NCBI GenBank assembly: GCA_028554795.2
Contig: CM068828.1
Span: 22,157,436 to 22,221,435, forward strand
From: Sinohyriopsis cumingii
Lineage: Eukaryota; Mollusca; Bivalvia; Unionida; Unionidae
Direction: 5' to 3'
Length of the DNA stretch: 64,000 bases
Positions 34,712 to 54,659 of this stretch are shown piece after piece; position 1 is the first letter of the stretch; the number at the start of each line of letters is the position of its first letter. Under the pieces are notes generated by a model that made no database searches, was not told the DNA's origin, and saw only the letters and a list, made by a program, of their open reading frames with translations. The position numbers were made by a program, and so were the translations under genes.

Positions 34712-35080
34712 AGTAGTGAATAGGGTCACCCTAGCGTCAATGGGAATTAGCATTACAGACCCCCCCCCCCGGGTCAATCTAGCGTCAAGGGAAAATTAAC
34801 ATGGAGAAAATTCGTGGGTCAATCTAGCGTCAAGGGGAATTTAACATGGAGAAAAATCGTGGGTCAATCTAGCGTCAAGGGGAATTTAACATGGAGTCAC
34901 TCTAGCGTCAAGAGGAATTGAATATGGAGAAAAAATCGCGGGACTGTCTAGCGTCAAGGGAAATTGAATATGGGATTTTTTTTTTTTAAAAATAAAAAAG
35001 TTTTTTTGTAAAAAAGGGGTAGGCAATCGAAAGTCATTCTATTTTCTAGAAATATGGGTGGCCCTGAAAAGGGCCTTTGG
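34712..35080. repeat. left terminal inverted repeat
   Basis: Matches the reverse complement of 54277-54659. Internally it is a ladder of about six units built on CTAGCGTCAAGGGGAATTTA and ACATGGAG, then a T/A-rich tract and GGTAGGCAATCGAAAGTC, ending in the stem-loop at 35060. One unit is shorter than in the right copy. Confidence 0.97.
35060..35075 (-). terminator. histone-type 3' stem-loop for the leftmost gene
   Basis: On the minus strand GGCCCTTTTCAGGGCC, preceded by CCCAAA and followed by ACCCATA, then TAGAAAATAGAATGAC about 14 nt on. It lies 24 nt after the stop of the gene at 35100-35330. Identical stem to 36143 and 54282. Confidence 0.85.
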
Positions 35081-35099
35081 GTTTATGTTAATGTATGCA

Positions 35100-35330
35100 T
35101 TAACATAAAGGGCATCTGCGGCATCTTCTTGTCCTCAAGCTGCGTCTTACTCGAGGGCCATAAATCAGTGTCCTCTTGAGGCAACCTTGTCTTTCTACGT
35201 ACACTCTTCGTATCCACAGACTGGTGTCTGACTTGTCGACAACGGTCCACTTGGACCGGACATACATGAGCATGTCCGTCCTAAACATCATGGAAGACAC
35301 AAGGGTGGATGATTCGACTGTGGTCCACAT
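35100..35330 (-). CDS. small basic Cys-rich left-end protein
   Basis: 76 residues, unknown family. It has a basic centre (SLWIRRVYVERQGCLKRTL) and ends RRCRRCPLC. A TTATAAATA box lies about 50 nt upstream on the same strand (35376-35384), and the histone-type stem-loop follows directly. It is real rather than chance because the copy at 61661 has a homologous frame (62201-62001) that keeps the protein, including the RRRRCCRCPLC tail, while differing in DNA. The spaced cysteines at the end could bind a metal or an SH-reactive partner; no function can be assigned. Confidence 0.7.
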   Translation of the reverse strand: MWTTVESSTLVSSMMFRTDMLMYVRSKWTVVDKSDTSLWIRRVYVERQGCLKRTLIYGPRVRRSLRTRRCRRCPLC

Positions 35331-35375
35331 CTTGAAGCGACGAGAACAGGTGAATCAATGCAGTGAACTGCGCTT

Positions 35376-35501
35376 ATTTATAAGTAGAGGAAGGATTGAA
35401 ACGGATTGAGTTCATTGACCAATCCGAACACGCGTTACAAAATTCAGTCAGCCCGCATCCAATCCGAAGAGAGCAGTCTGTGACGTCACGTGGTCTATAT
35501 A
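35376..35501. promoter_or_regulatory. divergent left-end promoter region with CRE, E-box and TATA
   Basis: Leftward TATA at 35376-35384 for the gene at 35330. Rightward CRE (TGACGTCA, 35481-35488) overlapping an E-box (CACGTG, 35487-35492) and a TATATA at 35496-35501, 49 nt before the ATG at 35550. The CRE/E-box/TATA string is kept unchanged in the second copy (62382-62403), which argues for function. Confidence 0.7.
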
Positions 35502-35549
35502 GATTCGCTAGCGCTTGTGTACAGTCAATCTATGCGACAGTGATTCAAC

Positions 35550-36074
35550 ATGACGGAAACTCAGAAAACGATCCATTGGGGTGCACCAGGAGGGGAGACT
35601 GCCCAAGGGAACCCGGACTTACTTTCAGAAGAGGTGAATTGGCATTTTGTGGATTTTCTTACCTCGCAAGAATTTGTTCCGGAACCTTCGTTACCTTCTT
35701 CATTACTGCAAGTGGAGAATTTTAGACAGAGACAGAAAGAAGAATTGGAGAAATTTATACAACGACAAAAGGAAGCGGAACAAGCTTTTCTCCTACAACA
35801 GCAGCAAGAAGAAGAGGTAAGAAAAAAACAACAGCAACAACAGCAAGAAGAAGTAGCAGCAAAGAAACAAGAGGGTGAAAATCAAACGGTCACGGTACTG
35901 TTGGACATTTTAGCGGAGTTAAGAAGTCTGAAACAAATGTATCAGACTTCTTTATTACGACCGAAGAGAATACAACCTTTCCGAGCTAAACACGTTAACC
36001 CTGTGACTAAGCCTACCGTACCACCCTTAGTGATTCAACCCAATCATCATCATCATTACGCAGTCCAGAAGTAG
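35550..36074 (+). CDS. Gln/Glu-rich coiled-coil protein
   Basis: 174 residues, no recognised family. The first 60 residues are acidic (PDLLSEEVNWHFVDFLTSQE). Residues about 63-110 are a Q/E/K-rich helix with heptad-like spacing, and the tail is basic and His-rich (NHHHHYAVQK). The start follows a CRE and TATA box; the stop is followed 69 nt later by a perfect histone-type stem-loop and downstream element. In the second copy the gene is interrupted by a nonsense codon and then a deletion. It could be an early regulatory or scaffold protein, but this is inference. Confidence 0.7.
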   Translation: MTETQKTIHWGAPGGETAQGNPDLLSEEVNWHFVDFLTSQEFVPEPSLPSSLLQVENFRQRQKEELEKFIQRQKEAEQAFLLQQQQEEEVRKKQQQQQQEEVAAKKQEGENQTVTVLLDILAELRSLKQMYQTSLLRPKRIQPFRAKHVNPVTKPTVPPLVIQPNHHHHYAVQK

Positions 36075-36142
36075 GCCTTGGCCGTGGCAAAGGCTTAAGG
36101 CAGTTAAAGTTGATTGCTTAAACTCACCCCTACACCAAAAAA

Positions 36143-36183
36143 GGCCCTTTTCAGGGCCACCCACATTTCTCGAAAAGAGATAG
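36143..36183 (+). terminator. histone-type 3' end: stem-loop plus downstream element
   Basis: CACCAAAAAA, then GGCCCTTTTCAGGGCC (6-bp stem, 4-nt loop), then ACCCACA, then 13 nt later GAAAAGAGATAG. This matches the metazoan histone mRNA consensus (ACCAAA, GG-YYY stem, ACCCA, purine-rich U7 site) almost base for base. It ends the gene at 35550-36074. Confidence 0.85.
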
Positions 36184-36352
36184 CCTTTCAATTTGCCAAT
36201 AACTCAAAAAAAAAAAAACCCAACCCATTTTACCCCTATAGTACGTGTCTGTGTATGAGTGCGTGAGTGTACGTTCTTATTTTAAAATCATAACTCAAAG
36301 ACACTTACCTTATATCATTAATTTATTCTTTTATCCATTGTTACAATCCAAT

Positions 36353-36869
36353 TCAGAATTCACAACAGAACACTTTAATTAAAAGTTCATTTACTTCTTC
36401 TGTCTCCTTGTTTAGTTTCTGTTTTTTAAATTTCTTCACCGTCTTTTCCTCTTCTTCCTCCTCACTTTCTTCCCTTCTTCTTTTCTTCTCCTGTTTCTTT
36501 GCCTCTTCTAAATATAATTGTTTTCTTTCTTCCTCTTCTTCCTCTGAAGAATCCCTCTCTTCTTCTGAAGAATTCCTCTTTTCTTCTGACTCCTCTTGTT
36601 TCTTTTTTGGGCAATCTGGAGACCAATGTCCTTTTTCTTGACAATAATAACAGGTATCTTGACTTTTGTCTTTTTTAGCCCTTTTTTTTTCTTTTTTGAC
36701 GGTCTGGACACTCTGAAGACCAATGCCCTTTCTTCTGACAGATATAGCAAGTATCTTGACTTTTATCTCGAAAGGAAGGAGAGTAGTCCGTGGGCTGGTC
36801 TGAAGAGAATTTTCTAATGACCCCTCGCAAAGCTCTGACGAAACGTTCGATTTGGCTAGTCTCTTCCAT
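36353..36869 (-). pseudogene. zinc-knuckle (CCHC) protein, frameshifted
   Basis: Minus-strand gene starting at 36869 (MEETSQIERFVRALRGVIRK). It has one CCHC knuckle (CYICQKKGHWSSEC) in the first frame, then a 9-A run at about 36681-36690 after which the second knuckle (CYYCQEKGHWSPDC) and an acidic/basic tail lie in the next frame, ending at 36353. Knuckles of this spacing bind single-stranded nucleic acid. A TATATAAAAG box lies about 50 nt before the start (near 36926) and a minus-strand AATAAA at 36322-36327, so this gene, unlike the end genes, looks polyadenylated. The frame break could be an assembly error, mutation or slippage in the A run. Confidence 0.7.
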
Positions 36870-37003
36870 CGTTGTGCTCGGCTTGAGAGTGAAATGAATA
36901 GTGAAAGGTCAAGACACACACCCTTTTATATACGCTGGTCTGCCAGGACTATAAATTAGTCCATGGTGTTTAAACTTGAGTCATTTGACGTTTTTCACTC
37001 AAG
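36870..37003. promoter_or_regulatory. bidirectional promoter between zinc-knuckle gene and PolB
   Basis: A 134-bp gap between divergent ATGs. It has a leftward TATATAAAAG (minus strand, near 36922-36931) and a rightward TATAAATTAG at about 36953, each about 50 nt before its ATG. Confidence 0.6.
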
Positions 37004-40000
37004 ATGAAACGATCTTATTCATTCGAGAAGAAAGAAGAAGAAGAAGAAGAAAGTAAGAGGCAGAAACGTGATCTATCGCCTCGTACCAGGGCTGAAATCT
37101 TGGCACAAATTCATGCCAGTGATTTTGAAGAGGACACGAGTGAACCAGAATCCGAACCCTCTAAACCAAGTTCACCACCCTTAGTCAACCCTGAAAAATA
37201 CTATTCCATTCGAGAGACGGAAAAGCGCTCCTCTAGAAAATTTAGAACCACGACTTACAAATACACGGTGAAGTTTAAAGATTTCAAGGCTGAAGTGCCG
37301 TTAGAGAAAGCAGAAGTGTTTATCACTGGGGTGTGGGATTCTTTGCTCACCACACTCAAGCGACAATGTCAACCCAAAGAAGACGATCGCTTGAGACTTT
37401 CCATACAACACGACGGTTTGAAATCCCCTGTTTGGATGGAGTTTAGCACCCCTGCAGAATTGACCGCTTCCAAAGTCATGGACAAGATTCAACACGTACA
37501 ACAATCTAATGATCAGTTTGACATCACCGATGGTAAAGCCACACTGGACATGACCCATGTCTCTCCTCCTCAAGGGACTGGACGCAAAAAGATGTTATTG
37601 GTGGACGATCTTCGCAACACCAAAACAAGTCTCGTCCGAATTCACAACCCTCATGACCAGATGTGTTTAGCCCGTGCCATCGTGGTGGGACGAACCTATG
37701 CCAACAAGAACGACACGGTAGAATGGAAAAGAACCCGGAGAACTATTCAACAATCCGACCGAGCCAAACAACGAAACGAAGCAGAACTCCTGTTACAACA
37801 AGCCGGACTATCCAAAAACACACCCTGTGGCATTCCTGAGATGCAAAAATTGCAAGATGTCCTAGCTCCTCGCTACACCTTGAAAGTGCACCCTCAAGAA
37901 ATGCGTGGGCCTCTGTTGTTTCGAGGCCAAGATTTTAAGGATGGAAAATACATTCATGTTTATTATCACGATGACCATTTCGATACCATTACCACCATCA
38001 CCGGATTCCTGGGATATGTTTATTATTGTGAGAAATGTGACCGTGGTTATAATAATCGAGAGCAACACAAACATTGTGGATCGAAATGCCCAGGATGTTT
38101 GGCCTCTCCACCCTGTCTGAGCGAAAGACCAGTGCCTTGTTCAACTTGTCTGCGCACGTTTGTCAGCCCTACCTGTCACCAACAGCATTTGAAGACGCAT
38201 GGTTCACAGAAGAAATGTGCTTGTCAACTCCTGAGATTGTGCCCTACGTGTGGACAAGGCATATGTACCAATACTGCCAAGGCACACGTATGTCGAGGAA
38301 AGAAAAAATGTCACATTTGTCACCACATCGTGGACTTGGAACACCAATGCTACGTGCAAAAATACCAACCCCCACCAGAGAAAGAGGACGGTCACAAGAA
38401 GAAAGGCAATTTCATCTTTTTCGATTTCGAATGCATGCAAGAGACCGGCATTCACATTCCTAATTTCTGCGTGGCTCATTGAGCGTGCGAGAAGTGCATT
38501 CAAGAACCTATTTTCAGTCATTGCCCTCACTGCAGCAAGATTCCTGGAGGGCGTGAAAAAATCTTTCGGGGACCGAACACGTTAGCCGATTTTGCCCAAT
38601 GGGTCTTAGACCCCATCGACAAGATGTGGAGCCAAGAGGACATCGAACGTTAGGGAGATTGTCATCGTCATGCCACGGTGATGGCTCACAATTTTTCCGG
38701 ATACGATGGACAGTTTCTTTTGAGATACTATACGGAACAAGGCACCGAGCGTCCTAAAGTGACTTTGAACGGAGCCAAGATCATTTTCATGCAAGTGGGA
38801 CAAGTACAGTTTAAAGATTCGATGAGCTATTTGGCCATGCCTTTGAGCCGAATGCCTAAAACGTTTGGAATGACAGAAATGGCTAAAGGGTACTTTCCAC
38901 ACTTTTTCAATTCGGAAGCCAATCAACACGCCGTTCTACCCCATTTACCTGAGGCTCACTACTACGACCCCGACAACATGCGTACCGAACAACGAGAAGC
39001 TTTCTACGCTTGGTACCAGGCTCACGCCTCGGACCCTTTCGACTTTCAGGAAGAAATGCTAAAGTATTGTCGTTCCGACGTGGACATTTTATGGCGTTGC
39101 TGTGGAAAATTTCGAGAACTGTTCATGGAAGACGGAGGGGTCGATCCTTTGAAAGAAGCTTGCACCATTGCCAAAGCGTGTTCCTTAGTGTACCGGCAAC
39201 GATTCATGCCTGAAAACACCGTGGCTGTCATCAGCCCTCAAACGACCCACTATGTCAAACGTCAATACTCGGTCAAAGCCCTACGTTGGTTACATTACTT
39301 GTGCGACAAGGAAGACAAGTGGATTCAGCATGCTCGCAACGGAGGGGGTGAAAAGACCATCGGAACGTATTCGGTCGATGGCTGGGACTTAGAAAACCCC
39401 AAGATCGTGTACGAGTTTAACGGTTGCTTATTTCACGGATGTCCCGTTTGTTACCCTGATCGTAGCACTAAAAATCAGTTTTTACAACGAACCATGGAAG
39501 ACTTGTACCAGGACACTTGTCAGCGGCGCCTAAAGTTGGAACAAGAAGGATACCAAGTGGTGGAAATGTGGGAACACGAGTACGATCACCGTATGAAAAC
39601 CGATCCCGAGTTTAAACGCCTCGTGGAAAGTTACCAGTTCATGGACCCGCTGAACCCGAGGGATAGTTTGTACGGAGGAAGGACCAATGCCACCTGTTTG
39701 CTGTACCAAGCCGACGAAGAGAAAGGAGAAGAAATCAAATACTTGGACGTGTGTTCGCTGTATCCCTACGTGTGCAAATATTGTCGCTTTCCTGTAGGGC
39801 ACCCGCAATTGTTGACGGAACACATCGACCTGAAAAACATTTGACAATACGAAGGCTTGATCAAGTGTAAAGTTTTGCCTCCCACGAACCTATACCATCC
39901 CGTCTTACCTCACCATTGTCAAGGCAAACTGATGTTTCCATTGTGCCGTACTTGTGCCGAAACGTGCAACCAAGACCAACCTTGTCAGCACACCCAGGAA

Positions 40001-41074
40001 GAACGTGCCTTGACGGGAACCTGGGTCAGCGTAGAATTGTTCAAAGCTCTGGACATGGGATACCAACTGTTAGAAGTGTACGAAATTTGCCACTTTCCCG
40101 AGACACAACAATACCACGAGGGTGATCCCAGTCAGAAAGGCATTTTCGCTGACTACGTGGATGCCTTTTTGAAACTGAAACAAGAAGCCAGCGGCTATAC
40201 TTCCTGGTGTCACACTCCCGAAGACCAAATACAATTCAAAGAAAAATACTATGAACAAGAAGGCATCACTTTAGACCAGATCGAGAAAAACGAAGGCAGG
40301 CGATCGTTTGTCAAAGTGATGTTAAATTGCTTGTGGGGTAAAATGGCACAACGACCATGTTTACCCAAGACGGAATATTTGACAGAACCTTCCCGCTACT
40401 TCCAGATGATTCACGACAAAACCAAATACATGAAACACGTGGACGTCGTTCGCGAGGATTTGATCTTAGTCAATTACGAAGAAGATCTGGACTTTGTACA
40501 AGACGACCCTTTTGGAAATGTCATCATTGCGGCTTACGTGACAGCCCATGCTCGCTTAAAATTGTACGAAGCTTTAGAACTGTTAGGGGAACGCGTTCTA
40601 TACTTTGACACGGACAGTTGCATTTACATTCATCACCCGAGTCAACAGCACCCTGACATCGAAGGAGACCGTTTAGGAGCCTGGACAGACGAGCATCCCG
40701 ACGACAAGATTCTAAGTTTCGTCAGTGGCGGTCCTAAAAATTACGGCTACGAATACCGAGACAAACAAGGAGAAGTGCACACGACGTGCAAAGTGAAAGG
40801 ACTGACTCTGAATTATCGTACCAGTCGTGTGGTCAACTTTGGGGTATTGAAAGAAGCCTTGCAATCCGGAGAGGATGGAAACTTTAAAGTAACCACCTAT
40901 CAACCGAACAAGATTGTACTTTTACCCACTCATCACATCGTCAGTCGACCCTTGGAAAAAGTCTATCAAATCGTGTACCAGAAGCGAGTGCGACTTCCCA
41001 GTCATTTCACCTTACCGTATGGACACGTTGGTATTGGTCTGTATATAAAAAGGAACCCCAGGCAAGATCGATAG
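37004..41074 (+). pseudogene. polB: protein-primed type B DNA polymerase (PolB), three nonsense codons
   Basis: Copies the element from its termini by protein priming. One continuous frame of 1,356 codons is cut by TGA at 38480 (codon 493), TAG at 38651 (codon 550) and TGA at 39842 (codon 947). The second copy has sense codons at the latter two sites. Visible in order: acidic N-terminus; the Polinton N-terminal domain (NPHDQMCLARAIVVGRTY); cysteine/histidine fingers about 340-460; Exo I D474-x-E476; Exo II NFSGYD (563-568); Exo III YCRSD (688-692); motif A DVCSLYP (915-921); motif B KVMLNCLWG (from 1104); motif C FDTDS (D1202, D1204). All catalytic residues are intact. The length is usual for the family. 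The stops make it non-functional unless read through. Confidence 0.95.
41041..41051 (+). promoter_or_regulatory. TATA box for the BIR gene
   Basis: GTATATAAAAAGG inside the last codons of PolB, about 60 nt before the ATG at 41107. Confidence 0.6.
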
Positions 41075-41106
41075 TTCATTGTGACTACCAAGACCGAGCG
41101 AACAAG

Positions 41107-41745
41107 ATGAATACTTTCAGAGGAACACGAACCAAGTTGTTTAGAAAGGCACAATTCAAGTGTGAGGCTTCTGAAGTGGAATGCGATTGTGAGCCTTGCG
41201 ATGGGTACGATGCTGTACCTTGTGACCTTAGCGATGGCGTAAAGCATCATGGGAACTTTAGTGTCATTACCACTATCATGGAAAGTGATGCTGTGCGTGT
41301 CAAACCTGAGGGATGCGAAAGTGATGCCGCTCGTCCTCTTGGACATTTTACTGGGTTTCGTTTTAAAGGGGAATGTTCACCTTTACGTCTACCCCCCTAC
41401 GGATGTCATCCAGCCCTGAGCAAACTCCTGTTCATGTCACCCAACCCTCATCGAAACGAACCTGTGAAAGACGAATATTCGTTTCATGTGCGTTTGTCGG
41501 AATACTGCGACTTTGAAAATCGTCTTCAATTGTTCAAAGGAAAATGGCCTAAGTATCTGGGAGGACCGACCCCCGAAGAATTAGCCAGAGCCGGATTTTT
41601 CTACTTGGGCGAAGGAGATAAACTCAAGTGCTTCAGTTGCGGTGTGTCACTTCACCACTGGGAACCGCAAGATTCGGCCTACGTAGAACATGCTCGATGG
41701 TCACCGAATTGTCATTACTTACCCTTAGTGGGACAGAGACATTGA
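41107..41745 (+). CDS. BIR-domain (IAP-type) protein
   Basis: 212 residues. The C-terminal part (about 134-207) is a baculovirus IAP repeat: RLQLFKGKWPKYLGGPTPEE, ARAGFFYLGEGDKLKCFSCG and a zinc set C175-x2-C178-x16-H195-x6-C202 with exact BIR spacing. BIR proteins bind caspases or IAP-binding-motif proteins and can block apoptosis. The N-terminal 130 residues hold a Cys-rich stretch (CDCEPCDGYDAVPC) of unknown role. There is no RING finger. It starts 33 nt after PolB with its own TATA box and is intact, unlike PolB. A captured host or viral gene is the likely origin; whether it inhibits cell death is inference. Confidence 0.9.
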   Translation: MNTFRGTRTKLFRKAQFKCEASEVECDCEPCDGYDAVPCDLSDGVKHHGNFSVITTIMESDAVRVKPEGCESDAARPLGHFTGFRFKGECSPLRLPPYGCHPALSKLLFMSPNPHRNEPVKDEYSFHVRLSEYCDFENRLQLFKGKWPKYLGGPTPEELARAGFFYLGEGDKLKCFSCGVSLHHWEPQDSAYVEHARWSPNCHYLPLVGQRH

Positions 41746-41767
41746 AGTAACTTACCATAATCTGTTC

Positions 41768-42184
41768 ATGGATACTTTACAGGAGAACATTCGTGCTTTG
41801 CCTGTGGAGTTGAGAGAACGCATTTACCGAGAACTGGTGAAAATACAAGTGAAACGTAAAGAACAATTGCATCCGTTACGTCACCGGTGTTTGAACCACT
41901 GGTACCTGAAGGCTATACAAGGACTGATTGAGTTGAAAGTGTTCCATTGGACAGACATTGATCAACGACCCCCTGGTTTTAAAAAGGAATGGTTTGCTCT
42001 GGATGATTCTATCTACTACATTGTAAACGTACTGCATCGAATTCCAGAGGAAGAGTTAACGAATTACCAACATCTTTTACGCAATGTCGACTTAGTGAAA
42101 GAGGAAACTTCTGAACGAATTGTAACGTGTAAATTAGTAACTAAACGATTTAGATTCGACAATGAATTAAAACCATGTCTGTGA
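41768..42184 (+). CDS. F-box-like small protein, tandem copy 1
   Basis: 138 residues. It begins MDTLQENIRALPVELRERIY, whose LPVELRERIYREL segment resembles the first helix of an F-box (LPxELxxxIxxxL). The rest (IDQRPPGFKKEWFALDDSIY) is unrecognised. It is the longest of three neighbouring genes sharing the first 35 residues. If it is an F-box it would recruit an SCF ubiquitin ligase, but the call rests on one short motif. Confidence 0.6.
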   Translation: MDTLQENIRALPVELRERIYRELVKIQVKRKEQLHPLRHRCLNHWYLKAIQGLIELKVFHWTDIDQRPPGFKKEWFALDDSIYYIVNVLHRIPEEELTNYQHLLRNVDLVKEETSERIVTCKLVTKRFRFDNELKPCL

Positions 42185-42235
42185 AAACAGTACATGTCTT
42201 GTGTCAGACAAAAGAGGATTTAGTATGACCTATTC

Positions 42236-42508
42236 ATGGATACTTTGCTAGAGAACATTCGTGCTTTGCTTGTGGAGTTGAGAGAACGCATTTACCGAGA
42301 ACTGATCAAAATACAAGTGAAACGCAAACGCAAAGTTATTGAACCGTTTTTAAATTATGCTCTGTTCCAAAGTATAAGAAGACTGATTATGAGTGGATAT
42401 TACATCAGGCACAAAGGTAAACGAGGCTATTGGCCACCACCCAAGGATTCCAAAAACAGTGTATATACTTATGGATACTTTACAAGAGAACATTTTGGGC
42501 TTGCCTGA
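42236..42508 (+). CDS. F-box-like small protein, tandem copy 2
   Basis: 90 residues, starting MDTLLENIRALLVELRERIY. The N-terminus and the DNA before the ATG (TATTCATGGATACTTTGC) are shared with copy 1; the C-terminal half is different. The expected Pro of the LPxEL motif is Leu here. Its end overlaps the start of copy 3. Confidence 0.5.
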   Translation: MDTLLENIRALLVELRERIYRELIKIQVKRKRKVIEPFLNYALFQSIRRLIMSGYYIRHKGKRGYWPPPKDSKNSVYTYGYFTREHFGLA

Positions 42509-42716
42509 GGAGTTGAGAGAAAGGATTTACCGAGAGCTGGTGAAAATACAAGTCAAACGTAAAGAACAATTGCATCCGAAAAGAGAATATAAAAACAGGC
42601 TGCCATGCCACGACTTATGTCACATGTCATTGAATAGATTCCGTGGAAGGAACTCAATGACCATATTCAAACCGTGGATCATTGCCATCGATTATTACAA
42701 GAACTGTATCCATTAA
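42471..42716 (+). CDS. F-box-like small protein, tandem copy 3
   Basis: 81 residues from the internal ATG at 42471 (MDTLQENILGLPEELRERIY). Shares KIQVKRKEQLHP with copy 1, then diverges. The frame overlaps a possible small gene at 42605-42829, so the true end of this protein is uncertain. Confidence 0.5.
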   Translation: MDTLQENILGLPEELRERIYRELVKIQVKRKEQLHPKREYKNRLPCHDLCHMSLNRFRGRNSMTIFKPWIIAIDYYKNCIH

Positions 42717-43364: not shown

Positions 43365-43410
43365 CTCTTGTCTTGTTTGTTTTCGTGTCACAAGTGACAT
43401 TTCTCACACT

Positions 43411-46259: not shown

Positions 46260-46288
46260 CACACCAACCAACACAAAAAAAATAAAAA

Positions 46289-47374
46289 ATGGAAAAAGTC
46301 TTAGCCAGCATTTACTACGATCCCTCCCATCCTGCAGGTTACGCAGGAGTTCAAAAATTGTATCGTGCTGCCAAAACTCGATTGAAAAGTCTCCGTTTAC
46401 TTCAAGTGCAACGATGGTTACAAGAACAAGCTACCTACACTTTGCACAAACCCATTCGACGCAAGTTTGCCAGAAGTCGCACCCGAGTGGAAGGCATCGA
46501 TCATCAATGGCAAGCCGATTTAGCCGATGTCTCTCATTTGGCCAGCTACAATCGTGGCTATAAATATTTGTTTTGTGTCATCGACGTCTTTTCCAAATTT
46601 GCCTGGGTCGTGCCCTTGACTTCCAAATCGAGCAGCGAGTTAGTGCAAAGCGGTCGTCACCCTCTTCGATGGCAAACGGACAAAGGCACCGAATTTCTGA
46701 ACCAAGCTTTCCAAAAAGAATTAAAGAAACGTGACATTCATTTTTTTACCACCGAGAATCCCGAAACCAAAGCCAGCATCGTGGAACGTTTTCAACGCAC
46801 TTTGAAAGAACGCATGTGGAAATATTTTACGCATCACCACACTCTGAAGTACATCTACATCTTACCGCACCTGGTGCAAGCGTACAACCAATCTTACCAT
46901 CGAAGCATCGGACGTGCCCCGCAAGAAGTGACTCCCGACAACGAAGTGCTGGTGTTTGAGCGCCTGTTTGGTACGTCCCCGACGAGGGCTGTCCCCAAGA
47001 AAAGTGGAGAGTTGGCCGTAGGAGATTGGGTGCGCATTGGCAAAACCAAACGCACTTTCGACAAAGGTTACTTACCTAACTGGACGACCGAATTGTTTCG
47101 TGTCACTGGACGAGTGCATGGCCGTCATCCTGCCGTCTATAAATTGAAAGACATGAACGGAGAAGTGCTCAAAGGAACGTTTTATTTGCCCGAGTTACAA
47201 CGTGTCACCAAAAAAGAAGACGACGTGTACGACATCGAAAGCATTCTCGAACGCAGAACCCGTAAAGCGGGCAAACGACGTGTCAAAGAAGTCAAAGTAC
47301 GTTGGAAAGGATATCCACCCAGTTTTGATTCTTGGATCGAGGCTTCGCAAGTTATCGACTATAAAAAGAAATGA
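46289..47374 (+). CDS. int: rve-family integrase with chromodomain
   Basis: 361 residues, catalyses insertion of the element into host DNA with 6-bp staggered cuts. Catalytic triad: D77 (WQADLAD), D131 (QTDKGTEF) and E166 (ASIVERFQRTLK). Downstream of the core are a YHRSIGRAPQEVT segment and an SH3-like part (GELAVGDWVRIGKTKRTFDK). Residues about 315-357 are a chromodomain (YDIESILERR, VRWKGYPPSFDSWIEASQVI), which may direct insertion to modified chromatin. Compared with relatives, the stretch between PLTSKSSSELV and SGRHPLRWQTDKG looks about 8-10 residues short, perhaps a small deletion before the second Asp. Otherwise intact. Its stop overlaps the next ATG. Confidence 0.95.
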   Translation: MEKVLASIYYDPSHPAGYAGVQKLYRAAKTRLKSLRLLQVQRWLQEQATYTLHKPIRRKFARSRTRVEGIDHQWQADLADVSHLASYNRGYKYLFCVIDVFSKFAWVVPLTSKSSSELVQSGRHPLRWQTDKGTEFLNQAFQKELKKRDIHFFTTENPETKASIVERFQRTLKERMWKYFTHHHTLKYIYILPHLVQAYNQSYHRSIGRAPQEVTPDNEVLVFERLFGTSPTRAVPKKSGELAVGDWVRIGKTKRTFDKGYLPNWTTELFRVTGRVHGRHPAVYKLKDMNGEVLKGTFYLPELQRVTKKEDDVYDIESILERRTRKAGKRRVKEVKVRWKGYPPSFDSWIEASQVIDYKKK

Positions 47375-48750: not shown

Positions 48751-48753
48751 GTC

Positions 48754-49179: not shown

Positions 49180-49196
49180 GACACAGCAATAAAAAA

Positions 49197-50516
49197 ATGA
49201 TGCACCGAGAGTCTTGCGCCTGTTCCAAGTCGGAACTGGATCTGTTTGCCATGCCCCCCACCATGATGACCATGCAAGAATCCCAATGGGTGGAATTTAA
49301 CCCCGTCTCCTCATTGGCCGATTCCGCTCCCATCGAGTTTGACATCAAAGGACAGCCCGAAGATTACATCGATCTGAATAGCAGTTACTTGTACTTGAAA
49401 GTCAAAGTTCTAGATAAGGATGGTAATAGAGTAGAAGACAGTGAGAATATAGCTCCCGTCAACAATTTCATGCATTCCTTGTTCAGCTCAGTGGACTTGT
49501 ACTTGAATAACAAACTGGTCAGCAGCAGCATGGATACTTACCCTTACCGTGCCTACCTGGAAAATCTCTTGACGTACGGAATAGATGCCAAGAATACTCA
49601 TCTCAATGCTTGTGTGCTATGGGAACCTGACGAAGCGGACAAGTTCGACAAAACAGATGGAAGCAATGACGACTTTGTGGAAAGAGAAAAGAAAATCTTA
49701 GATGGAAAGAGTTTAGAACTGATGGATCGTTTGCATTTGGACATGTGGTTGCAAGAGAAATATTTGCTGAACGGGGTAAATGTTCGCTTGAGACTGAATC
49801 GTAGCAGTGCCGCTTTTCATTTGTTGGCTGATGGTGATGCTATTAAGAATGGCAATCCTAAAAGCAAAATCGAGGAGGCCAAACTCTACGTACGACGCGT
49901 GGAAGTGTTACCTAAAGTGGGAAACAACATCAGTCAAACGTTGAGCAGAACGACCGCCAAGTATCCCATACGACGCGTGGAAGTGAAAACGTTCACCATT
50001 CCTAGTGGACAGCTATCCATGATGGAAGATCATCTGTTCCAAGGACAGTTACCCAAACGTTTAATCCTTGGTATCGTCAAGAATTCAGCCTTCAACGGAG
50101 ACTTCACTCAAAATCCTTTCAACTTTCATCACTTCAACGTGTCCAAGATTGAAGTCAGTCGCGATGGAAAGACCTTGTGTACCCGACCTTTCGAACCTAA
50201 CTTTGATCCCACAAAGATGAATTACTTGAGATCGTACTTGTCGCTGTACGAAGCCACGGGACAGTTAGGGACCAACACCAGTCACGGCATTACGTACGAG
50301 GATTATGCAGGAGGCTATGTTTTGTGGGCTTTCGATTTCACTCCAGACCAAGGCAGCGACGAGGGACATTTCCACCCTATAAAATCCGGCCAAATTCGTG
50401 TGGAAATTCAGTTTGCAAAACGAGACCCTGATGTAACGTTGAACGTCATCCTGTATGCAGAATTCGATAATACGATAGAAATCAACACTTTGAAAAAAGT
50501 CATTCTAGATTATTAG
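49197..50516 (+). CDS. double jelly-roll major capsid protein
   Basis: 439 residues from the first ATG (MMHRESCACSKSELDLFAMP). Forms trimeric hexon-like capsomers. Recognised by family-typical stretches: IEFDIKGQPEDYIDLNSSYL, VNNFMHSLFSSVDLYLNNKL, YPYRAYLENLLTYG, TFTIPSGQL, QLPKRLILGIVKNSAFNGDF, NPFNFHHFNVSKIEVSRDGK and, at the end, GQIRVEIQFA. It is the best-preserved gene of the element, full length and without breaks. It identifies the element as virus-like, that is, potentially able to form particles when all genes are intact. Confidence 0.95.
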   Translation: MMHRESCACSKSELDLFAMPPTMMTMQESQWVEFNPVSSLADSAPIEFDIKGQPEDYIDLNSSYLYLKVKVLDKDGNRVEDSENIAPVNNFMHSLFSSVDLYLNNKLVSSSMDTYPYRAYLENLLTYGIDAKNTHLNACVLWEPDEADKFDKTDGSNDDFVEREKKILDGKSLELMDRLHLDMWLQEKYLLNGVNVRLRLNRSSAAFHLLADGDAIKNGNPKSKIEEAKLYVRRVEVLPKVGNNISQTLSRTTAKYPIRRVEVKTFTIPSGQLSMMEDHLFQGQLPKRLILGIVKNSAFNGDFTQNPFNFHHFNVSKIEVSRDGKTLCTRPFEPNFDPTKMNYLRSYLSLYEATGQLGTNTSHGITYEDYAGGYVLWAFDFTPDQGSDEGHFHPIKSGQIRVEIQFAKRDPDVTLNVILYAEFDNTIEINTLKKVILDY

Positions 50517-50521
50517 AAGCC

Positions 50522-51025
50522 ATGGAAGACTGTTATCCCTCTTTACCTAGTGGAGAAACTTTGGAGATGGAATGTAAGGAGACCGTGGAAGGAGAATCCC
50601 AAGACAAAGACGAAGAAGTTGTCATGATGAAGTCGAGATGGCCAGAACAAGAAGCCCATTTAGTCTCCTGTTTTGCCAAACACTTCGTGGAAAAAATGAC
50701 GGAATTGATCAAGAAAGATTGCTATGGATGTCAAAACGATCATCTCAGTCTAATTCAACACAATAAATGCCTGATGTTGAGTCAAGAAGAAAAATTGGAC
50801 GAGTATCTGGACGAGGCTTGGAGTCTCATCTCGGACGAAGACGTGTTGCACCAGTGGTATAAAGACTTGCGTGAACATTCTTGTCCACCATTAACCACTC
50901 AAGAGATCCATCGTATCGAAACTCTCCTGAATCAGAGTGAGGAGACGAAACGAAGAAACGGTTATTTGTCAGACATTTTCAAGCAAAAAGTCAGGATCGA
51001 ATTGATGACTTATTATTACCTGTGA
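50522..51025 (+). CDS. conserved Polinton Cys/His protein
   Basis: 167 residues. The signature CYGCQNDHLSLIQHNKCLM gives ligands C67, C70, H74, H80, C83, a likely zinc site known as a recurrent motif of an uncharacterised Polinton protein. It has an acidic start and a helical remainder (EEKLDEYLDEAWSLISDEDV). Begins 5 nt after the capsid stop. Intact; function unknown. Confidence 0.7.
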   Translation: MEDCYPSLPSGETLEMECKETVEGESQDKDEEVVMMKSRWPEQEAHLVSCFAKHFVEKMTELIKKDCYGCQNDHLSLIQHNKCLMLSQEEKLDEYLDEAWSLISDEDVLHQWYKDLREHSCPPLTTQEIHRIETLLNQSEETKRRNGYLSDIFKQKVRIELMTYYYL

Positions 51026-51055
51026 AGAAGAAGAAAAAAAAACACACACAAATCA

Positions 51056-51601
51056 ATGGATACCTGGGAACTTTATTACCTTTTGAACCACAGTTCGTAT
51101 ACGGCTTCTTGGAATCCTGTCGTCTGTGCTAAAGATGAACTCCCTCATCGCAAACCTTACGTGATCAACACGGACGACAGTCATGTCCCAGGAACCCACT
51201 GGTTAGACGTTTACTTTCCTCAAGAAGGATGTGTGGAATATTTCGATTCGTACGGATTGCCTCCTTTGGAAGACGATATCATCGACTTTATGAGAAGAAA
51301 TGCTCAGACCACCCGATTCAATAATGTGAAATTACAAGGCACAGATTCCTTGGTGTGTGGACAATATTGTGTGTATTTTCTGCATCATCGCAGCCTGGGC
51401 TATTCCTTAGAACATTTAGTGACTCATTTTGATCCTCGTTCTTCTTCAAGAAATGATGTGAAAGTAGATCGATGGTTTTGTGACCATTATGCTTATCTTT
51501 TGTCTCAAGCTAGGAAACGTAGTGTCCATCAATGGCCTAATGACTTCCAACAGTGGAAATCACAATTTCATTCACAACGTTGTCAGCCCTGTTTAAAGTA
51601 G
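51056..51601 (+). CDS. adenain-type cysteine protease
   Basis: 181 residues, the maturation protease that trims capsid precursors. Catalytic set by comparison with adenovirus protease (C5 family): H48 in GTHWLDVYF, D64 in EYFDSYG, Q94 in LQGTDSLVCGQYC and C101, with the Q-x6-C spacing of the family. Length fits. Intact. Last gene of the core cluster; a poly(A) signal follows at 51716. Confidence 0.92.
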   Translation: MDTWELYYLLNHSSYTASWNPVVCAKDELPHRKPYVINTDDSHVPGTHWLDVYFPQEGCVEYFDSYGLPPLEDDIIDFMRRNAQTTRFNNVKLQGTDSLVCGQYCVYFLHHRSLGYSLEHLVTHFDPRSSSRNDVKVDRWFCDHYAYLLSQARKRSVHQWPNDFQQWKSQFHSQRCQPCLK

Positions 51602-51812
51602 ACTGTAAATTGGAAAAAATGTTGTGTTTTGAAGAAAAAAATGTTTGATGTTATAGGGTTGGATTATTGTTAAAAATGTTAGAGTTGTTGTTGGTTAGTG
51701 TTAAGTGATTTTTTGAATAAAAAATGTTGTATTCTGAAAAAAAATGCCTTTGTCTTTTGTTTGGCTATAAGAATGTTTGATTCATGCTCTTTGACGTCTT
51801 ACTATCCCTCTC
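51602..51812 (+). promoter_or_regulatory. 3' end of core cluster: AATAAA at 51716, then a TATA box
   Basis: T/G-rich 3' UTR with AATAAA at 51716-51721, TTCTGAAAAAAAA and CTATAA at 51765-51770. The TATA box is 48 nt before an ATG at 51813 that is in frame with the next gene, so a longer N-terminal form is possible. Confidence 0.5.
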
Positions 51813-51848
51813 ATGACACTCATTGAACGTTGCGACTCGAAAACCGTA

Positions 51849-51888
51849 GAGGGATGTTTTCCTTCACGTCCGCGCTTTGAGTTTAAGA
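51849..51888 (+). promoter_or_regulatory. right-end promoter block 1
   Basis: GAGGGATGTTTTCCTTCACG, then TCCGCGCTTT and GTTTAAGAACC. Repeated before the next two genes and in the relic at 19759. Confidence 0.75.
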
Positions 51889-51941
51889 ACCGAGCAAGTT
51901 TCCAGTCTTACCATCCATTGTCGACTCATCCTCCTACGAAG

Positions 51942-52316
51942 ATGTGCTCCAAACTAGCTAAGCTAAACGAAGCCTACGTGAATTTGCATAGGGTCAGACA
52001 CAGTCTGATACCGAAGCCAGAAGAGACAGAGAATGTGAGAATGTTAAAAGTCACTGAAGACCTGATAGAAGACCTCTTCAGAGAAGAAGTGAACAGGGAG
52101 AAAGAAGAATGGACAGAGAAGTACAGACTTCAGAGACAGCAGCAGCAGCAAGAGCAGCAACAACAACAACAACAACATCAGCAGCAGCAACCTGAACCTG
52201 ACAGAGGCTTTGTCGATTGTCGTATCGACACCAAAGAGTTCTTCTTCTCTTTCCGAAGAAGCAGACCTATCGCCAGAAAGTCCATCCTCAGAGGACATCG
52301 CATTCTTAGAAACTAA
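51942..52316 (+). CDS. right-end gene 1: Gln-rich coiled-coil protein
   Basis: 124 residues from the ATG at 51942, chosen because it sits 64 nt after the promoter block, as in its two neighbours; an upstream in-frame ATG at 51813 is the alternative. Charged helix (MCSKLAKLNEAYVNLHRVRH, TEDLIEDLFREEVNREKEEW), then a Gln run from CAG/CAA codons, then a basic end. Followed 28 nt later by a histone-type stem-loop. Unknown family. Confidence 0.6.
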   Translation: MCSKLAKLNEAYVNLHRVRHSLIPKPEETENVRMLKVTEDLIEDLFREEVNREKEEWTEKYRLQRQQQQQEQQQQQQQHQQQQPEPDRGFVDCRIDTKEFFFSFRRSRPIARKSILRGHRILRN

Positions 52317-52343
52317 AAGATTGCCATAGCAAACAAAAAAAAC

Positions 52344-52387
52344 AGCCCTTCTCAGGGCTACCCCAATACTCTAGAAAAGAAATAACC
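52344..52387 (+). terminator. histone-type 3' end of right-end gene 1
   Basis: ACAAAAAAAAC, then AGCCCTTCTCAGGGCT, ACCCCA and, about 14 nt on, GAAAAGAAATAACC. The outer pair is A-T instead of G-C. Confidence 0.8.
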
Positions 52388-52730
52388 GTCAATTTGCCAA
52401 TGTGTGCAGGTAGAGTAGTGTGAATATAAACACTAACTCTTTTTTATAGTGTGAGGGTATGTGTTTGTGTATAGGACTGTGTGTTAGTAAGTGCTCACGT
52501 ACGTTGGTGTGGATAGTAGATTAAGATCATGTCTTTTTTTGGTGTTAGAGGTGTGGGGAGAGTAGATTTGGGGTTGGATTGGATTGCTTTGCGTATGTGA
52601 ATAGTATATTATTTGTTTAATAAATTTTTTTAGAATAGTGATGGGTAGCATAAAAAAAGTGAGTGAGTGTTTCTTTTAGGTCCGCGCGTTGTTTGGTCAT
52701 GATCTAGGTAAGATCAATTTTATGTTTTTA
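52388..52730. repeat. intergenic block duplicated at 53202-53598
   Basis: Shared text includes TTTGCCAATGTGTG, GTAGAGTAGTGTGAATATAA and ACACTAACTCTTTTTTATAG, then T/G-rich sequence, then TGGTCATGATCTAGGTAAGA. The right end therefore grew by duplication of a gene-plus-control unit. A partial promoter block (TCCGCGCGTT at 52681) lies in it. Confidence 0.85.
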
Positions 52731-52770
52731 GAGGGATGTTTTCCTTCACGTCCGCGCTTTCACTATAAAT
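52731..52770 (+). promoter_or_regulatory. right-end promoter block 2
   Basis: GAGGGATGTTTTCCTTCACG, TCCGCGCTTT and CTATAAATTG, 60 nt before the ATG at 52820. Confidence 0.8.
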
Positions 52771-52819
52771 TGAAACTCGCTGGACAGTCTAGCTACCCTG
52801 TTCATTCGTTGACAAAACA

Positions 52820-53134
52820 ATGAATACCAGAATTGTGAAACTCCTAGAACTCCAGATGCACCTGGAATATGCCAGGCGCATACTAAATGAACTGGCCGCG
52901 GAGGCCATTGTAGAAGAAGCAAGAATGAAAGAGGTCGAGGAGGAAAGAAGAAGAAAAGAAGAGGAGGAGAGAAGAAACAAAGAAGAGGAGAGAGGAAATT
53001 TCAGAATCCCAGAGACAGAAAATTGGGATTCTGAAGCCACATATCCCGCCTCTGCACTCCCAAGAAGAAAGGTGAAAGGAGACTGGGGAAGAAGATGCGT
53101 GTGTGGCGCCAGGCCAGGAAGGTGCCGTCATTAG
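52820..53134 (+). CDS. right-end gene 2: Glu/Arg-rich coiled-coil protein
   Basis: 104 residues. Helical start (MNTRIVKLLELQMHLEYARR), an uninterrupted charged coil (EEERRRKEEEERRNKEEERG) and a C-terminal CVCGARPGRCRH with closely spaced cysteines. Followed 33 nt later by a histone-type stem-loop. No family recognised. Same promoter and 3' end as its neighbours. Confidence 0.6.
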   Translation: MNTRIVKLLELQMHLEYARRILNELAAEAIVEEARMKEVEEERRRKEEEERRNKEEERGNFRIPETENWDSEATYPASALPRRKVKGDWGRRCVCGARPGRCRH

Positions 53135-53166
53135 ATAGGTGCATCTGGAGTTAAAAAAAAAACAAC

Positions 53167-53209
53167 AGCCCTTTTCAGGGCTACCCAATACTCTAGAAAA
53201 GAAATAACC
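53167..53209 (+). terminator. histone-type 3' end of right-end gene 2
   Basis: AAAACAAC, AGCCCTTTTCAGGGCT, ACCCA and GAAAAGAAATAACC. Confidence 0.85.
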
Positions 53210-53530
53210 ATCAATTTGCCAATGTGTGTAGGTAGAGTAGTGTGAATATAAACACTAACTCTTTTTTATAGTGTGAGGGTATGTGTTTGTGTGTTTGTGT
53301 TTGTAAGCGCTCACGTAAGTTTGTGTGAATAGTAGATTATGGGTTGGTTTATTGTTTCTTAGCGTATGTAGAGAGTATAGTTTGGGTTTTGTAAAAGCTA
53401 AAGTAGGATTGTGTGGATAGTAGATTATGGATTAGGTTTTAATGATTTGGGTGTGTAAATACTAGATTTGGGGATTGTTCATTGATGGTTAACGTATGTG
53501 GATAGTAGATTATATGAAATGAGAAAAGTA

Positions 53531-53637
53531 GGGGATGTTTTCCTTCACGTCCGCGCGTTGCTTGGTCATGATCTAGGTAAGATCAATTTTATGTCTTAGG
53601 GGGATGTTTTCCTTCACGCCCGCGCTTTTCGTATAAG
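53531..53637 (+). promoter_or_regulatory. right-end promoter block 3 (two tandem copies)
   Basis: A first copy at 53532-53559 ends in CCGCGCGTTG and has no TATA box; the second at 53599-53628 (GGGGGATGTTTTCCTTCACG, CCCGCGCTTT) is followed by GTATAAGAAC, 60 nt before the ATG at 53688. Confidence 0.8.
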
Positions 53638-53687
53638 AACTCACCACGTTCGTCGTTCGAACCATTCTACGGAATAACAGATACAAG

Positions 53688-54269
53688 ATGGAAGTGTCGG
53701 CGTTGTTTAATGACTTAAGAAATGTTTACTTTTGGATGATAGATGGAGAATATACTATTGAAAGGATAGAAAAAGAATGGAGGTTGAGAAAAAGTCTTGA
53801 CTATGTCAATGAACTAAAATTAGCGAGGAAGATGATAGAGGAGATGATAGAAGAAGAAGTTAAGAGATTGAGAGGATTGATTCAACCAGAGTATGTAAGA
53901 GTGGGGACTATAAAAGAGTCTATGGACAAGGTAAAAGGAGTGAGATGCTATTTAGAAGAGCTAGAGAAATGGTCAGAGTGGAAGTTGGTGAAAAGGGGCA
54001 GTGAACAACTAAAGAAAGCGGAAGAAAAGATGAAAAAGATAATAGAGGAAGAAGTGCAGAAAATTAAGGACAGGTGGGCAAAAGATAGAAAAGAACAAGA
54101 GAATAGAAAGAAAAAAGAAGAATATGAGAGACTGAACAATAACTGGATAAAAATCCAACAGAAGTTCCGAGCCATGGGTCACCCGGACTGGATACCGGAA
54201 AATGAAAAGAAGAAGAACAAAGGAATTTGGGGAAAGATTAGGGGCTGGATGAGGAAATGGAGGAAATAG
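53688..54269 (+). CDS. right-end gene 3: charged helical protein
   Basis: 193 residues, predicted almost fully helical: NDLRNVYFWMIDGEYTIERI, SLDYVNELKLARKMIEEMIE, then a Lys/Glu coil (QENRKKKEEYERLNNNWIKI) and a basic Trp-rich end (GIWGKIRGWMRKWRK). The stop lies 12 nt before the stem-loop that forms the inner edge of the right TIR. Related in layout, and probably by descent, to the relic gene at 19842. Unknown function. Confidence 0.65.
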   Translation: MEVSALFNDLRNVYFWMIDGEYTIERIEKEWRLRKSLDYVNELKLARKMIEEMIEEEVKRLRGLIQPEYVRVGTIKESMDKVKGVRCYLEELEKWSEWKLVKRGSEQLKKAEEKMKKIIEEEVQKIKDRWAKDRKEQENRKKKEEYERLNNNWIKIQQKFRAMGHPDWIPENEKKKNKGIWGKIRGWMRKWRK

Positions 54270-54276
54270 AAGAAAG

Positions 54277-54659
54277 CCAAAGGCCCTTTTCAGGGCCACC
54301 CATATTTCTTGAAAAGAGAATGACTTTCGATTGCTTACCCCTTTTTTTTTAAAAAAAAAATTTTATTTTAAAAAAAAATAATCCCATATTCAATTTCCCT
54401 TGACGCTAGACAGTCCCACGATTTTTTCTCCATATTCAATTCCTCTTGACGCTAGAGTGACCCAGGGTTTTTTCTCCATGTTAAATTCCCCTTGACGCTA
54501 GATTGACCCACGATTTTTCTCCATGTTAAATTCCCTTTGACGCTAGATTGACCCACGATTTTTCTCCATGTTAATTTTCCCTTGACGCTAGATTGACCCG
54601 GGGGGGGGGGGTCTGTAATGATAATTCCCATTGACGCTAGGGTGACCCTATTCACTACT
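54277..54659. repeat. right terminal inverted repeat
   Basis: Inverted match of 34712-35080, with an additional unit where the left TIR has lost one. Outermost bases end CACTACT, then the target duplication. Confidence 0.97.
54282..54320 (+). terminator. histone-type 3' end of right-end gene 3
   Basis: GCCAAA, GGCCCTTTTCAGGGCC, ACCCATA and, 13 nt on, GAAAAGAGAATGAC. It lies inside the TIR, so the same sequence serves leftward transcription at 35060. Confidence 0.85.

Follow-up and report, generated by a model that had tools for sequence, protein, structure and literature searches.

Histone-type 3′ end signals behind the outer genes of a Polinton element

Introduction

In giant viruses and virophages, hairpins direct transcript ends at the gene ends of these related DNA viruses; such hairpins are used by viral machinery and are not known to have a histone-type sequence or a U7 site. 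A different kind of hairpin terminates the replication-dependent histone mRNAs of animals. According to PMC10388802, SLBP needs a G at the second stem position, two A before the stem and one A after it. The cleavage context at histone 3′ ends is ACCCA or ACCCACA (PMC6303110) and, in the mouse, the purine core AAAGAG pairs with the U7 sequence CUCUUU (PMC7026596). In Polinton/Maverick elements, an AGT-repeat end motif and a TSD of 6 bp have been described (PMC8097293). No precedent for histone-type 3′ ends on Polintons was found in the open-licence literature, and a word search of the Maverick survey PMC8097293 for histone, stem-loop, hairpin and polyadenylation gave 0 occurrences. Here we describe a Polinton, probably of a mollusc genome, that carries those sequence signals for 3′ processing of metazoan replication-dependent histone mRNAs which can be recognised in DNA.

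Results

A Polinton with five outer genes

The window (the whole 64-kb stretch of DNA that was analysed) contains a Polinton/Maverick element, identified by its TIRs, ends, TSD, integrase and PolB.

34712..54659, no strand: Polinton/Maverick element, with AGTAGT...ACTACT ends, 6-bp TSD and core genes
34712..35080, plus strand: left TIR, from alignment to the right TIR
54277..54659, minus strand: right TIR, its inner edge being the first base of an RF00032 match

The TSD is TGCTTA, at 34706-34711 and 54660-54665. Pfam matches place an integrase (rve, PF00665) with a chromodomain (PF00385) at 46289-47371 and pieces of a type B polymerase of the protein-primed type (PF03175) at 38681-39841 and 39932-41071, and also identify an A32-like ATPase (PF04665, E 2.9e-8). 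A candidate protease shows a weak likeness to ASFV S273R (E 0.0086). The capsid candidate has no match of its own in Pfam or PDB; it belongs to a large protein family whose animal relatives are named F54H12.2-like, which we take to be the Polinton capsid. Among its relatives, P0001-P0004 are 75-81% identical to it. Five small genes lie at the outer ends of the element.

35100..35330, minus strand: gene 1, 76 aa, pointing outward, with its transcript entering the left TIR
35550..36074, plus strand: gene 2, 174 aa in the present copy
51845..51873, plus strand: shared upstream motif with core TTTTCCTTCACGTCCGCGC, preceding gene 3
51942..52316, plus strand: gene 3, 124 aa from the ATG at 51942 (167 aa from 51813), Q-rich
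52820..53134, plus strand: gene 4, 104 aa
53688..54269, plus strand: gene 5, 193 aa, pointing outward, with its transcript entering the right TIR

Gene 5 has 4 full-length relatives (51-57% identity; family members P0121-P0124 are encoded on contigs of 628-1010 nt) and a predicted all-helical structure (mean pLDDT 78); this model had no match in PDB or BFVD at E up to 0.001, so no function is given. Any homology of genes 3 and 4 to gene 5 is weak (18-25% identity). Four relatives of gene 2 have a common, different and longer C-terminus, with a stop that corresponds to 36119-36121 here; the gene 2 family members P0125-P0128 are encoded on contigs of 925-1172 nt. Between gene 1 and its second copy, differences at the three codon positions number 16, 9 and 37 (of 77 each). 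The protein relatives of genes 2 and 5, and the concentration of gene 1 changes on the third position, mark these three as real genes. No histone family was among the Pfam matches of genes 1-5 at E up to 0.1. The upstream motif recurs at 52739, 53538 and 53607, with a variant at 19764 in a relic element.

A histone-type hairpin follows each outer gene

An earlier note on this DNA had placed a hairpin behind each of the five outer genes; all five are there, in sense orientation and at the positions claimed. Each has a 6-bp stem and a 4-nt loop, and the gaps from stop to hairpin are 24, 68, 27, 32 and 12 nt for genes 1-5, the gene 2 hairpin lying 21 nt past the stop codon position used by the relatives. 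Two further hairpins are found in the window, in an internally deleted second copy and in the relic.

20257..20272, plus strand: decayed hairpin of the relic element, with core GAAAAGATG at the same distance
35060..35075, minus strand: gene 1 hairpin GGCCCTTTTCAGGGCC, then ACCCATA and GAAAATAGA
36143..36158, plus strand: gene 2 hairpin, then ACCCACA and GAAAAGAGA
52344..52359, plus strand: gene 3 hairpin AGCCCTTCTCAGGGCT, then ACCCCA and GAAAAGAAA; under the Rfam cut-off
53167..53182, plus strand: gene 4 hairpin AGCCCTTTTCAGGGCT, then ACCCA and GAAAAGAAA; under the Rfam cut-off
54282..54297, plus strand: gene 5 hairpin, then ACCCATA and GAAAAGAGA
61962..61977, minus strand: gene 1 hairpin of the second copy, then ACTCCA and GAAAAGAGA

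Two sequences differ from those first reported: the hairpin at 52344 reads AGCCCTTCTCAGGGCT and the downstream element of gene 1 reads GAAAATAGA. The proposed likeness to the histone stem-loop was borne out by the covariance model RF00032 (gathering score 34): genes 1-5 scored, in order, 42.2, 41.8, 28.4, 31.2 and 42.0 bits. The second copy, in which the stem was said to be kept, also passed the threshold, at 35.9 bits. Genes 3 and 4 fall short of it, yet have E values of 5.7e-4 and 5.2e-5, within a range of 4e-9 to 6e-4 obtained from a single 64-kb search with 4227 families.

Could the hairpins instead work at the DNA level, in TIR recognition, replication or packaging, or terminate transcription of the element, and resemble histone hairpins by chance? 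Two of the five do sit at inner TIR edges, but three are outside the TIRs, and loop, flanks and purine core together fit the histone model over the E range just given, which makes this explanation highly improbable.

The second stem base (G7 in SLBP numbering) is G in 7/7 hairpins and an A directly follows the stem in 7/7. The sequence before the stem, described as A-rich, is AA in five of the seven, but genes 3 and 4 carry AC there; in these two genes the outer pair of the hairpin is A-U. The ACC reported after the stem holds for genes 1-5, whereas the second copy and the relic have ACTCC.

Cleavage context and purine core

A CA dinucleotide ends 5 nt past the stem in genes 1, 2, 4 and 5 and 6 nt past it in gene 3, the second copy and the relic. 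The purine element claimed about 13-14 nt downstream was confirmed: a GAAAAGAGA-like core starts 13-14 nt past the hairpin in 7/7 cassettes, with 0-1 mismatch in six and 2 mismatches in the relic. Such a core with at most one mismatch at +12-14 follows 0.1% of the element's positions. With the mouse U7 sequence CUCUUU as the yardstick, AAAGAG at +15/16 is exact in 3/7 and has one mismatch in 4/7. The three best cassettes match the mouse H2a features AAAGAG and ACCCA, that of gene 1 with a single change in its core. A second hairpin predicted to hold the purine core in genes 1, 2 and 5 and in the second copy could hide it there; we rejected this fold as a true conserved feature, since genes 3 and 4 and the relic have no comparable fold and the purine core stays.

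Specificity of the signals

Hairpins with up to 2 mismatches number 7 in the 64-kb window against 0.06 expected, and 0/100 dinucleotide shuffles reached 7. Within 12-68 nt past the stop, a hairpin follows 5/5 accessory genes versus 0/22 other listed ORFs. Hairpin, AC and purine core combined, as a search pattern defined after the sites were seen, occur 5 times in the element, while simulations (n = 300) gave a mean of 0.007 and a maximum of 1. The same pattern has 0 occurrences in a set of 109 other loci, 995,869 bases in all, that includes 101 stretches picked for the bare hairpin. This bare hairpin, GGCYCTTTTCAGRGCC, was found in those 101 stretches of IMG/VR viral contigs (80 among the matches listed), and a pattern requiring AC and AAAGAR gave a single stretch, L109. 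A slightly wider hairpin pattern had 102 matches in the 109 loci; AC came next in one of them (L109, selected for AC) and none passed the AC-plus-purine test. A phage-like contig (L001), drawn in by one degenerate hairpin pattern, has no RF00032 match.

Polyadenylation signals

A scan limited to 300 nt from the stop found no A[A/T]TAAA behind the five annotated outer-gene stops. The contrasting claim, that the core genes have AATAAA, stands only in part: A[A/T]TAAA occurs at up to 300 nt in 7 of the 22 other ORFs, and the rest are without it. Just beyond the limit, an ATTAAA begins 304 nt past the gene 2 stop (257 nt past the relatives' stop) and an AATAAA 303 nt past the gene 3 stop, so back-up polyadenylation is possible at these two genes. 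These signals favour a dual use of the 3′ ends, in which the SLBP hairpin would serve export, stability or translation and many transcripts would be polyadenylated downstream, the gain being expression and not S-phase timing; C. elegans histone genes, which have a hairpin plus AATAAA (PMC1924863), offer a parallel. We regard dual use as unlikely, given that the position of the U7-type purine core is kept in 7/7 cassettes and that the sense strand behind genes 1, 4 and 5 has no A[A/T]TAAA before the next gene begins or the element stops.

Copies, relic and independence of the cassettes

Each TIR contains one of the hairpins, that of gene 1 on the left and that of gene 5 on the right. The RF00032 matches span 35080-35036 on the gene 1 side and 54277-54322 on the gene 5 side; steady identity between the TIRs stops at the first base of the match, and the histone-type cassette is therefore the innermost part of the TIR. 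Behind genes 3 and 4, two stretches of 109 nt, one beginning at 52362 and the other at 53184, share 98% identity. With two hairpins in TIRs and two 3′ ends that are duplicates, about three cassettes are independent, and the cassettes were perhaps spread by duplication within the element. Compensatory change is limited to one pair, seen in genes 3 and 4, which are duplicates, and the covariation score was reached by 27/500 shuffles; covariation was discarded as proof of the hairpin because the copies vary too little.

Sharing of this kind could also mean that the element on a single occasion picked up part of a host histone 3′ end, which then multiplied along with the TIR and through tandem duplication and does nothing for the genes of the element. 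The 54-nt cassette units are indeed alike (74-89% identical), two being in TIRs and two in duplicates, and covariation is weak. Such passive copying nevertheless seems a poor explanation, with only a slim chance of being right: the cassette is always in sense, 12-68 nt past the stop, in 5/5 genes, and the second copy shows no difference over 35 nt around the hairpin, against 169/231 identical positions in the gene 1 ORF. In addition, the changes sit at places that SLBP tolerates, namely the outer pair and the second loop base. Change at the latter is known to be accepted by SLBP. The relic, which has diverged further, retains the purine core with unchanged spacing. Its stem had been called traceable, and a hairpin lies at the position claimed; this hairpin has a broken pair, its fold is no more stable than that of shuffled versions (z 0.41), and RF00032 gave no hit there with E values of up to 1 allowed.

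Diverged relatives

A genome-contig scan recovered 6 diverged Polinton pieces from symbiont or metagenome bins (capsid identity 25-42%). None of them matched RF00032, even with E values of up to 1 allowed, a point against the histone-type reading. No TIR-like inverted repeat was found in the five searched for one (L002, L003, L004, L006 and L007), so their outer genes are perhaps not covered; the sixth piece, L005, measures 3.6 kb. L003 has one A/T-rich 43-nt repeat pair. Among IMG/VR viral contigs, no relative was found by capsid protein, polymerase piece or capsid alignment A1.

Discussion

Judged from the DNA, the outer genes end in a complete histone-type cassette, and their mRNAs are probably (about 0.8) processed by SLBP and U7 without polyadenylation; we infer that they accumulate mainly in S phase. 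Host SLBP would bind the hairpin behind the five outer genes and the host U7 snRNP would pair with the downstream purine core, with cleavage of the transcript behind the CA that lies 5-6 nt beyond the stem. Such mRNAs would be short, intronless and free of a poly(A) tail, and their accumulation in S phase would coincide with replication of the cell and, presumably, of the element. With genes 1 and 5 pointing outward and their cassettes at the inner TIR edge, cleavage would also end these transcripts before the host flank. This suggests that the element borrows the cell's S-phase message-processing machinery. A wider reading, to which we give even odds, is that histone-type 3′ ends are the accessory-gene rule in an animal Polinton lineage, where mRNAs without poly(A) would be confined to S phase through SLBP/U7 and so timed to host replication.

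If true, animals would have a non-histone class of histone-type mRNAs, the histone pathway would have a viral user, and a DNA virus would have a new way to follow the host cell cycle. A mobile, virus-like element with this signal behind several of its non-histone genes would be an exception to the rule given in the introduction of PMC10388802. The five cassettes would be naturally occurring variants on which to test how specific SLBP and U7 are, and RF00032 at outer genes is a simple mark with which other Polintons can be searched.

The 3′ ends described here share with C. elegans histone genes a hairpin plus a downstream element, but there AATAAA directly follows (PMC1924863) and here none lies at up to 300 nt from the five stops. 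They resemble the metazoan replication-dependent histone 3′ end in the 6-bp/4-nt hairpin, the flanking A (AA before the stem in five of the seven hairpins) and AC, the CA context, a purine core placed where U7 would pair, the nearby stop codon and the lack of a close AATAAA. Unlike metazoan histone genes, the Polinton outer genes have no histone Pfam match and sit on a mobile virus-like element, and the hairpins of genes 3 and 4 depart from the histone form in their A-U outer pair. The element itself is like other Polintons/Mavericks (adintovirus-like) in its TIRs, AGTAGT ends, 6-bp TSD, chromodomain integrase, PolB pieces, A32-like ATPase, putative protease and candidate capsid family, and is set apart by the histone-type 3′ ends of its outer genes, for which the word search of PMC8097293 gave no mention.

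A Polinton with five outer genes

The element studied here resembles vertebrate Mavericks, as described in passages of PMC8097293, in its AGT-repeat ends (AGTAGT/ACTACT) and its 6-bp duplication.

Features of the Polinton, its relatives in the window and the upstream motif

34712-54659: Polinton/Maverick, 19,948 bp, starts AGTAGT, ends ACTACT, TGCTTA (6 bp) on both flanks
35100-35330, minus: gene 1, left end, diverges from gene 2; hairpin 35060-35075
35550-36074, plus: gene 2, left end, diverges from gene 1; hairpin 36143-36158
51942-52316, plus: gene 3, right end, after the protease; hairpin 52344-52359
52820-53134, plus: gene 4, right end, after the protease; hairpin 53167-53182
53688-54269, plus: gene 5, right end, after the protease; hairpin 54282-54297
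61962-61977, minus: gene 1 hairpin of the second, internally deleted Polinton copy
20257-20272, plus: hairpin of the relic, a decayed element
51857, 52739, 53538, 53607, plus: upstream motif TTTTCCTTCACGTCCGCGC; variant at 19764, plus, in the relic

Pfam searches identified an integrase with rve and chromodomain, type B polymerase pieces and an A32-like ATPase, and the protease has a weak likeness to ASFV S273R (E 0.0086). At E up to 0.001 the capsid candidate has 2402 relatives; among the best 120 of these, named relatives are mostly bivalve (Mercenaria, Ostrea, Crassostrea, Saccostrea) plus the snail Littorina, the best named one being 53% identical and the four closest overall 75-81%. These relatives make a molluscan host probable. 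The Polinton also carries a BIR-domain (IAP-like) gene (41107-41745, E 7.4e-22) and, at 41752-42563, three tandem copies of a 109-nt unit, each opening a short ORF that starts MDTLQENI or MDTLLENI. A related tandem repeat of ~48 nt lies in both host flanks (34416-34702 and 54624-55150), so the insertion is within or next to a satellite-like array. Translations of 171-1593 (plus) and 11730-13709 (minus), read by eye, show remnants of non-LTR reverse-transcriptase ORFs.

Genes 1-5 have no Pfam match above family cut-off, and no histone family is among their matches at E up to 0.1. They look like real genes, judging from relatives of gene 5 (four full-length, 51-57% identity) and gene 2 (four, 48-95% over the part searched) and from gene 1, which differs from the second copy at 16/77, 9/77 and 37/77 of codon positions 1, 2 and 3, though in the second copy an early stop interrupts the gene 1 frame. 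That copy (61661-64000) has its AGTAGT end at 61661, and its gene 2 passes directly into polymerase sequence at ~62745, the intervening part having thus been deleted. An upstream motif (core TTTTCC[T/C][T/G]CACG[T/C]CCG[C/T]GC) is common to the relic gene and genes 3, 4 and 5. It occurs five times in the window, always on the plus strand and mostly a short way 5' of a TATA-like sequence; the accessory genes may share it as a promoter element. Between genes 1 and 2 (35380-35550) lie several CCAATCCG-like boxes, facing either way, as well as TGACGTCACGTGG, and the second copy retains them; this putative CCAAT-box divergent promoter recalls histone and cell-cycle genes.

Histone-type 3' ends follow the outer genes

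The earlier note had claimed a histone-type hairpin after all five outer genes, and a covariance search (Rfam, 4227 families, both strands, whole window) found RF00032, the histone 3' UTR stem-loop, at each: 42.2, 41.8, 28.4, 31.2 and 42.0 bits for genes 1-5, with genes 3 and 4 below the 34-bit cut-off. These were the sole Rfam matches inside the Polinton; apart from the second copy's hairpin (35.9 bits), the window yielded repeat-like miRNA/snoRNA models and one weak sRNA, all under cut-offs. The hairpins begin 24, 68, 27, 32 and 12 nt past the stop codons. Gene 2 stands out only because its relatives are longer: their stop maps to 36119-36121, 21 nt upstream of the hairpin. The single loop change, TTTC to TCTC in gene 3, falls at a position that varies among histone loops.

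AC directly follows the stem. CA comes next, 5 nt past the stem in genes 1, 2, 4 and 5 and 6 nt past it in gene 3, the second copy and the relic. The predicted U7-type element was also borne out, a purine core starting 13-14 nt past the stem in all seven cassettes (genes 1-5, second copy, relic): GAAAAGAGA in genes 2 and 5 and the second copy, GAAAAGAAA in genes 3 and 4, GAAAATAGA in gene 1 and GAAAAGATG in the relic. With z -2.05 to -4.13, six of the seven fold better than their own shuffles. The relic, whose stem had been called traceable, keeps the purine core at the usual distance, but one stem pair is broken and it folds no better than its shuffles (z 0.41). Conservation in the second copy held, with a 35-nt run around the hairpin unchanged, against 169/231 identical positions in the gene 1 ORF and 16/24 between hairpin and purine core. 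One stem pair is changed on both sides, in the duplicated genes 3 and 4; the covariation score was reached by 27 of 500 shuffles and is weak support for the hairpin. In the second copy and in genes 1, 2 and 5, the preceding pyrimidines are predicted to pair with the purine core, giving a further small hairpin that might make the core inaccessible to U7; fold prediction gave none around the core in genes 3 and 4.

Identity between the TIRs ends at 35080 on the left and 54277 on the right, where in each case the RF00032 match has its first base, so the cassette lies innermost in both TIRs; genes 1 and 5 are oriented outward into it. As parts of the TIRs their two hairpins are copies of one another, and the stretches 3' of the gene 3 and gene 4 hairpins are duplicates (98% identical). 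The sequence thus points to about three independent cassettes (TIR, gene 2, genes 3/4), which may descend from one.

Selectivity, rarity and relatives

The hairpin was absent after all 22 other ORFs listed. No AATAAA or ATTAAA lies within 300 nt of the annotated stops of genes 1-5, a limit that matters for gene 3 (AATAAA starting at 303 nt) and gene 2 (ATTAAA at 304 nt, 257 nt past its relatives' stop). The claim that core genes instead have AATAAA held in part: A[A/T]TAAA occurs within 300 nt of the end in 7 of the 22 but not in the rest, the end of one zinc-knuckle ORF being set by eye at 36400 (its stop is at 36675). This small CCHC ORF (36675-36869, minus) is convergent with gene 2 and has ATTAAA/AATAAA near 36379 and 36327 on its strand.

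With up to 2 mismatches permitted, the window has 7 hairpins where chance predicts 0.06. A looser pattern, in which AC and, at 10-24 nt, GAAAA or AAAGA follow any 6-bp hairpin that has the key bases, is present five times in the Polinton, against a mean of 0.007 and a maximum of 1 in 300 first-order simulations and none in 995,869 bases of 109 other loci; it was defined after the sites were seen, so its rarity overstates the case. The Rfam scores are free of this weakness. The bare hairpin is not rare in large collections (101 IMG/VR stretches); among the 109 loci, AC followed the stem in one, L109, chosen for it, and none passed the purine test.

The proposed covariance search gave above-cut-off scores in genes 1, 2 and 5 but no RF00032 match (E up to 1) in six other Polinton pieces, whose capsids are 25-42% identical and which come from animal-associated bins. 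One of these, L006, carries an almost complete core set and no cassette. Five of the pieces were searched for TIRs and none showed one, so the lack of RF00032 matches neither supports nor refutes generality. The pieces are animal Polintons within public bacterial genome bins (tubeworm/mussel symbionts, others), hence host contamination.

Comparison with known histone 3' ends

The cis signal is real and complete, and its presence on a mobile element is unexpected. Host SLBP and U7 would process the transcripts of genes 1-5 as they do histone mRNAs, a reading that the analysis makes probable (roughly 0.8). S-phase restriction would follow from how SLBP works in animals, and to the full reading, in which these mRNAs would also be restricted to S phase, we give even odds. 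The matches listed from the open-licence literature include no description of a histone-type 3' end in a Polinton, another transposon or a virus. Word searches found histone, stem-loop, hairpin and polyadenylation nowhere in PMC8097293; in PMC11071296 histone occurs twice (one mention, among the best 12 of 20 places, concerns histone-like proteins of adomaviruses) and stem-loop or polyadenylation never.

According to passages of PMC10388802, SLBP requires G at position 7 (the second stem base), two A 5' and one A 3' of the stem. The stem G and the A after the stem are kept in all seven cassettes; of the A-rich bases claimed before the hairpin, AA stands in five and is replaced by AC in genes 3 and 4. 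In mouse H2a, ACCCA precedes the cleavage site and the downstream purine core AAAGAG pairs with U7 CUCUUU (passages of PMC7026596), the major and minor cuts being placed after ACCCA and ACCCACA (passages of PMC6303110). Measured against this mouse U7, gene 2 has ACCCACA and AAAGAG, and gene 5 ACCCATA and AAAGAG. According to passages of PMC6303110 and PMC10388802, no metazoan mRNAs other than those of histones are known to be of this type; the Polinton cassettes join two known kinds, the histone-type 3' end and the Polinton.
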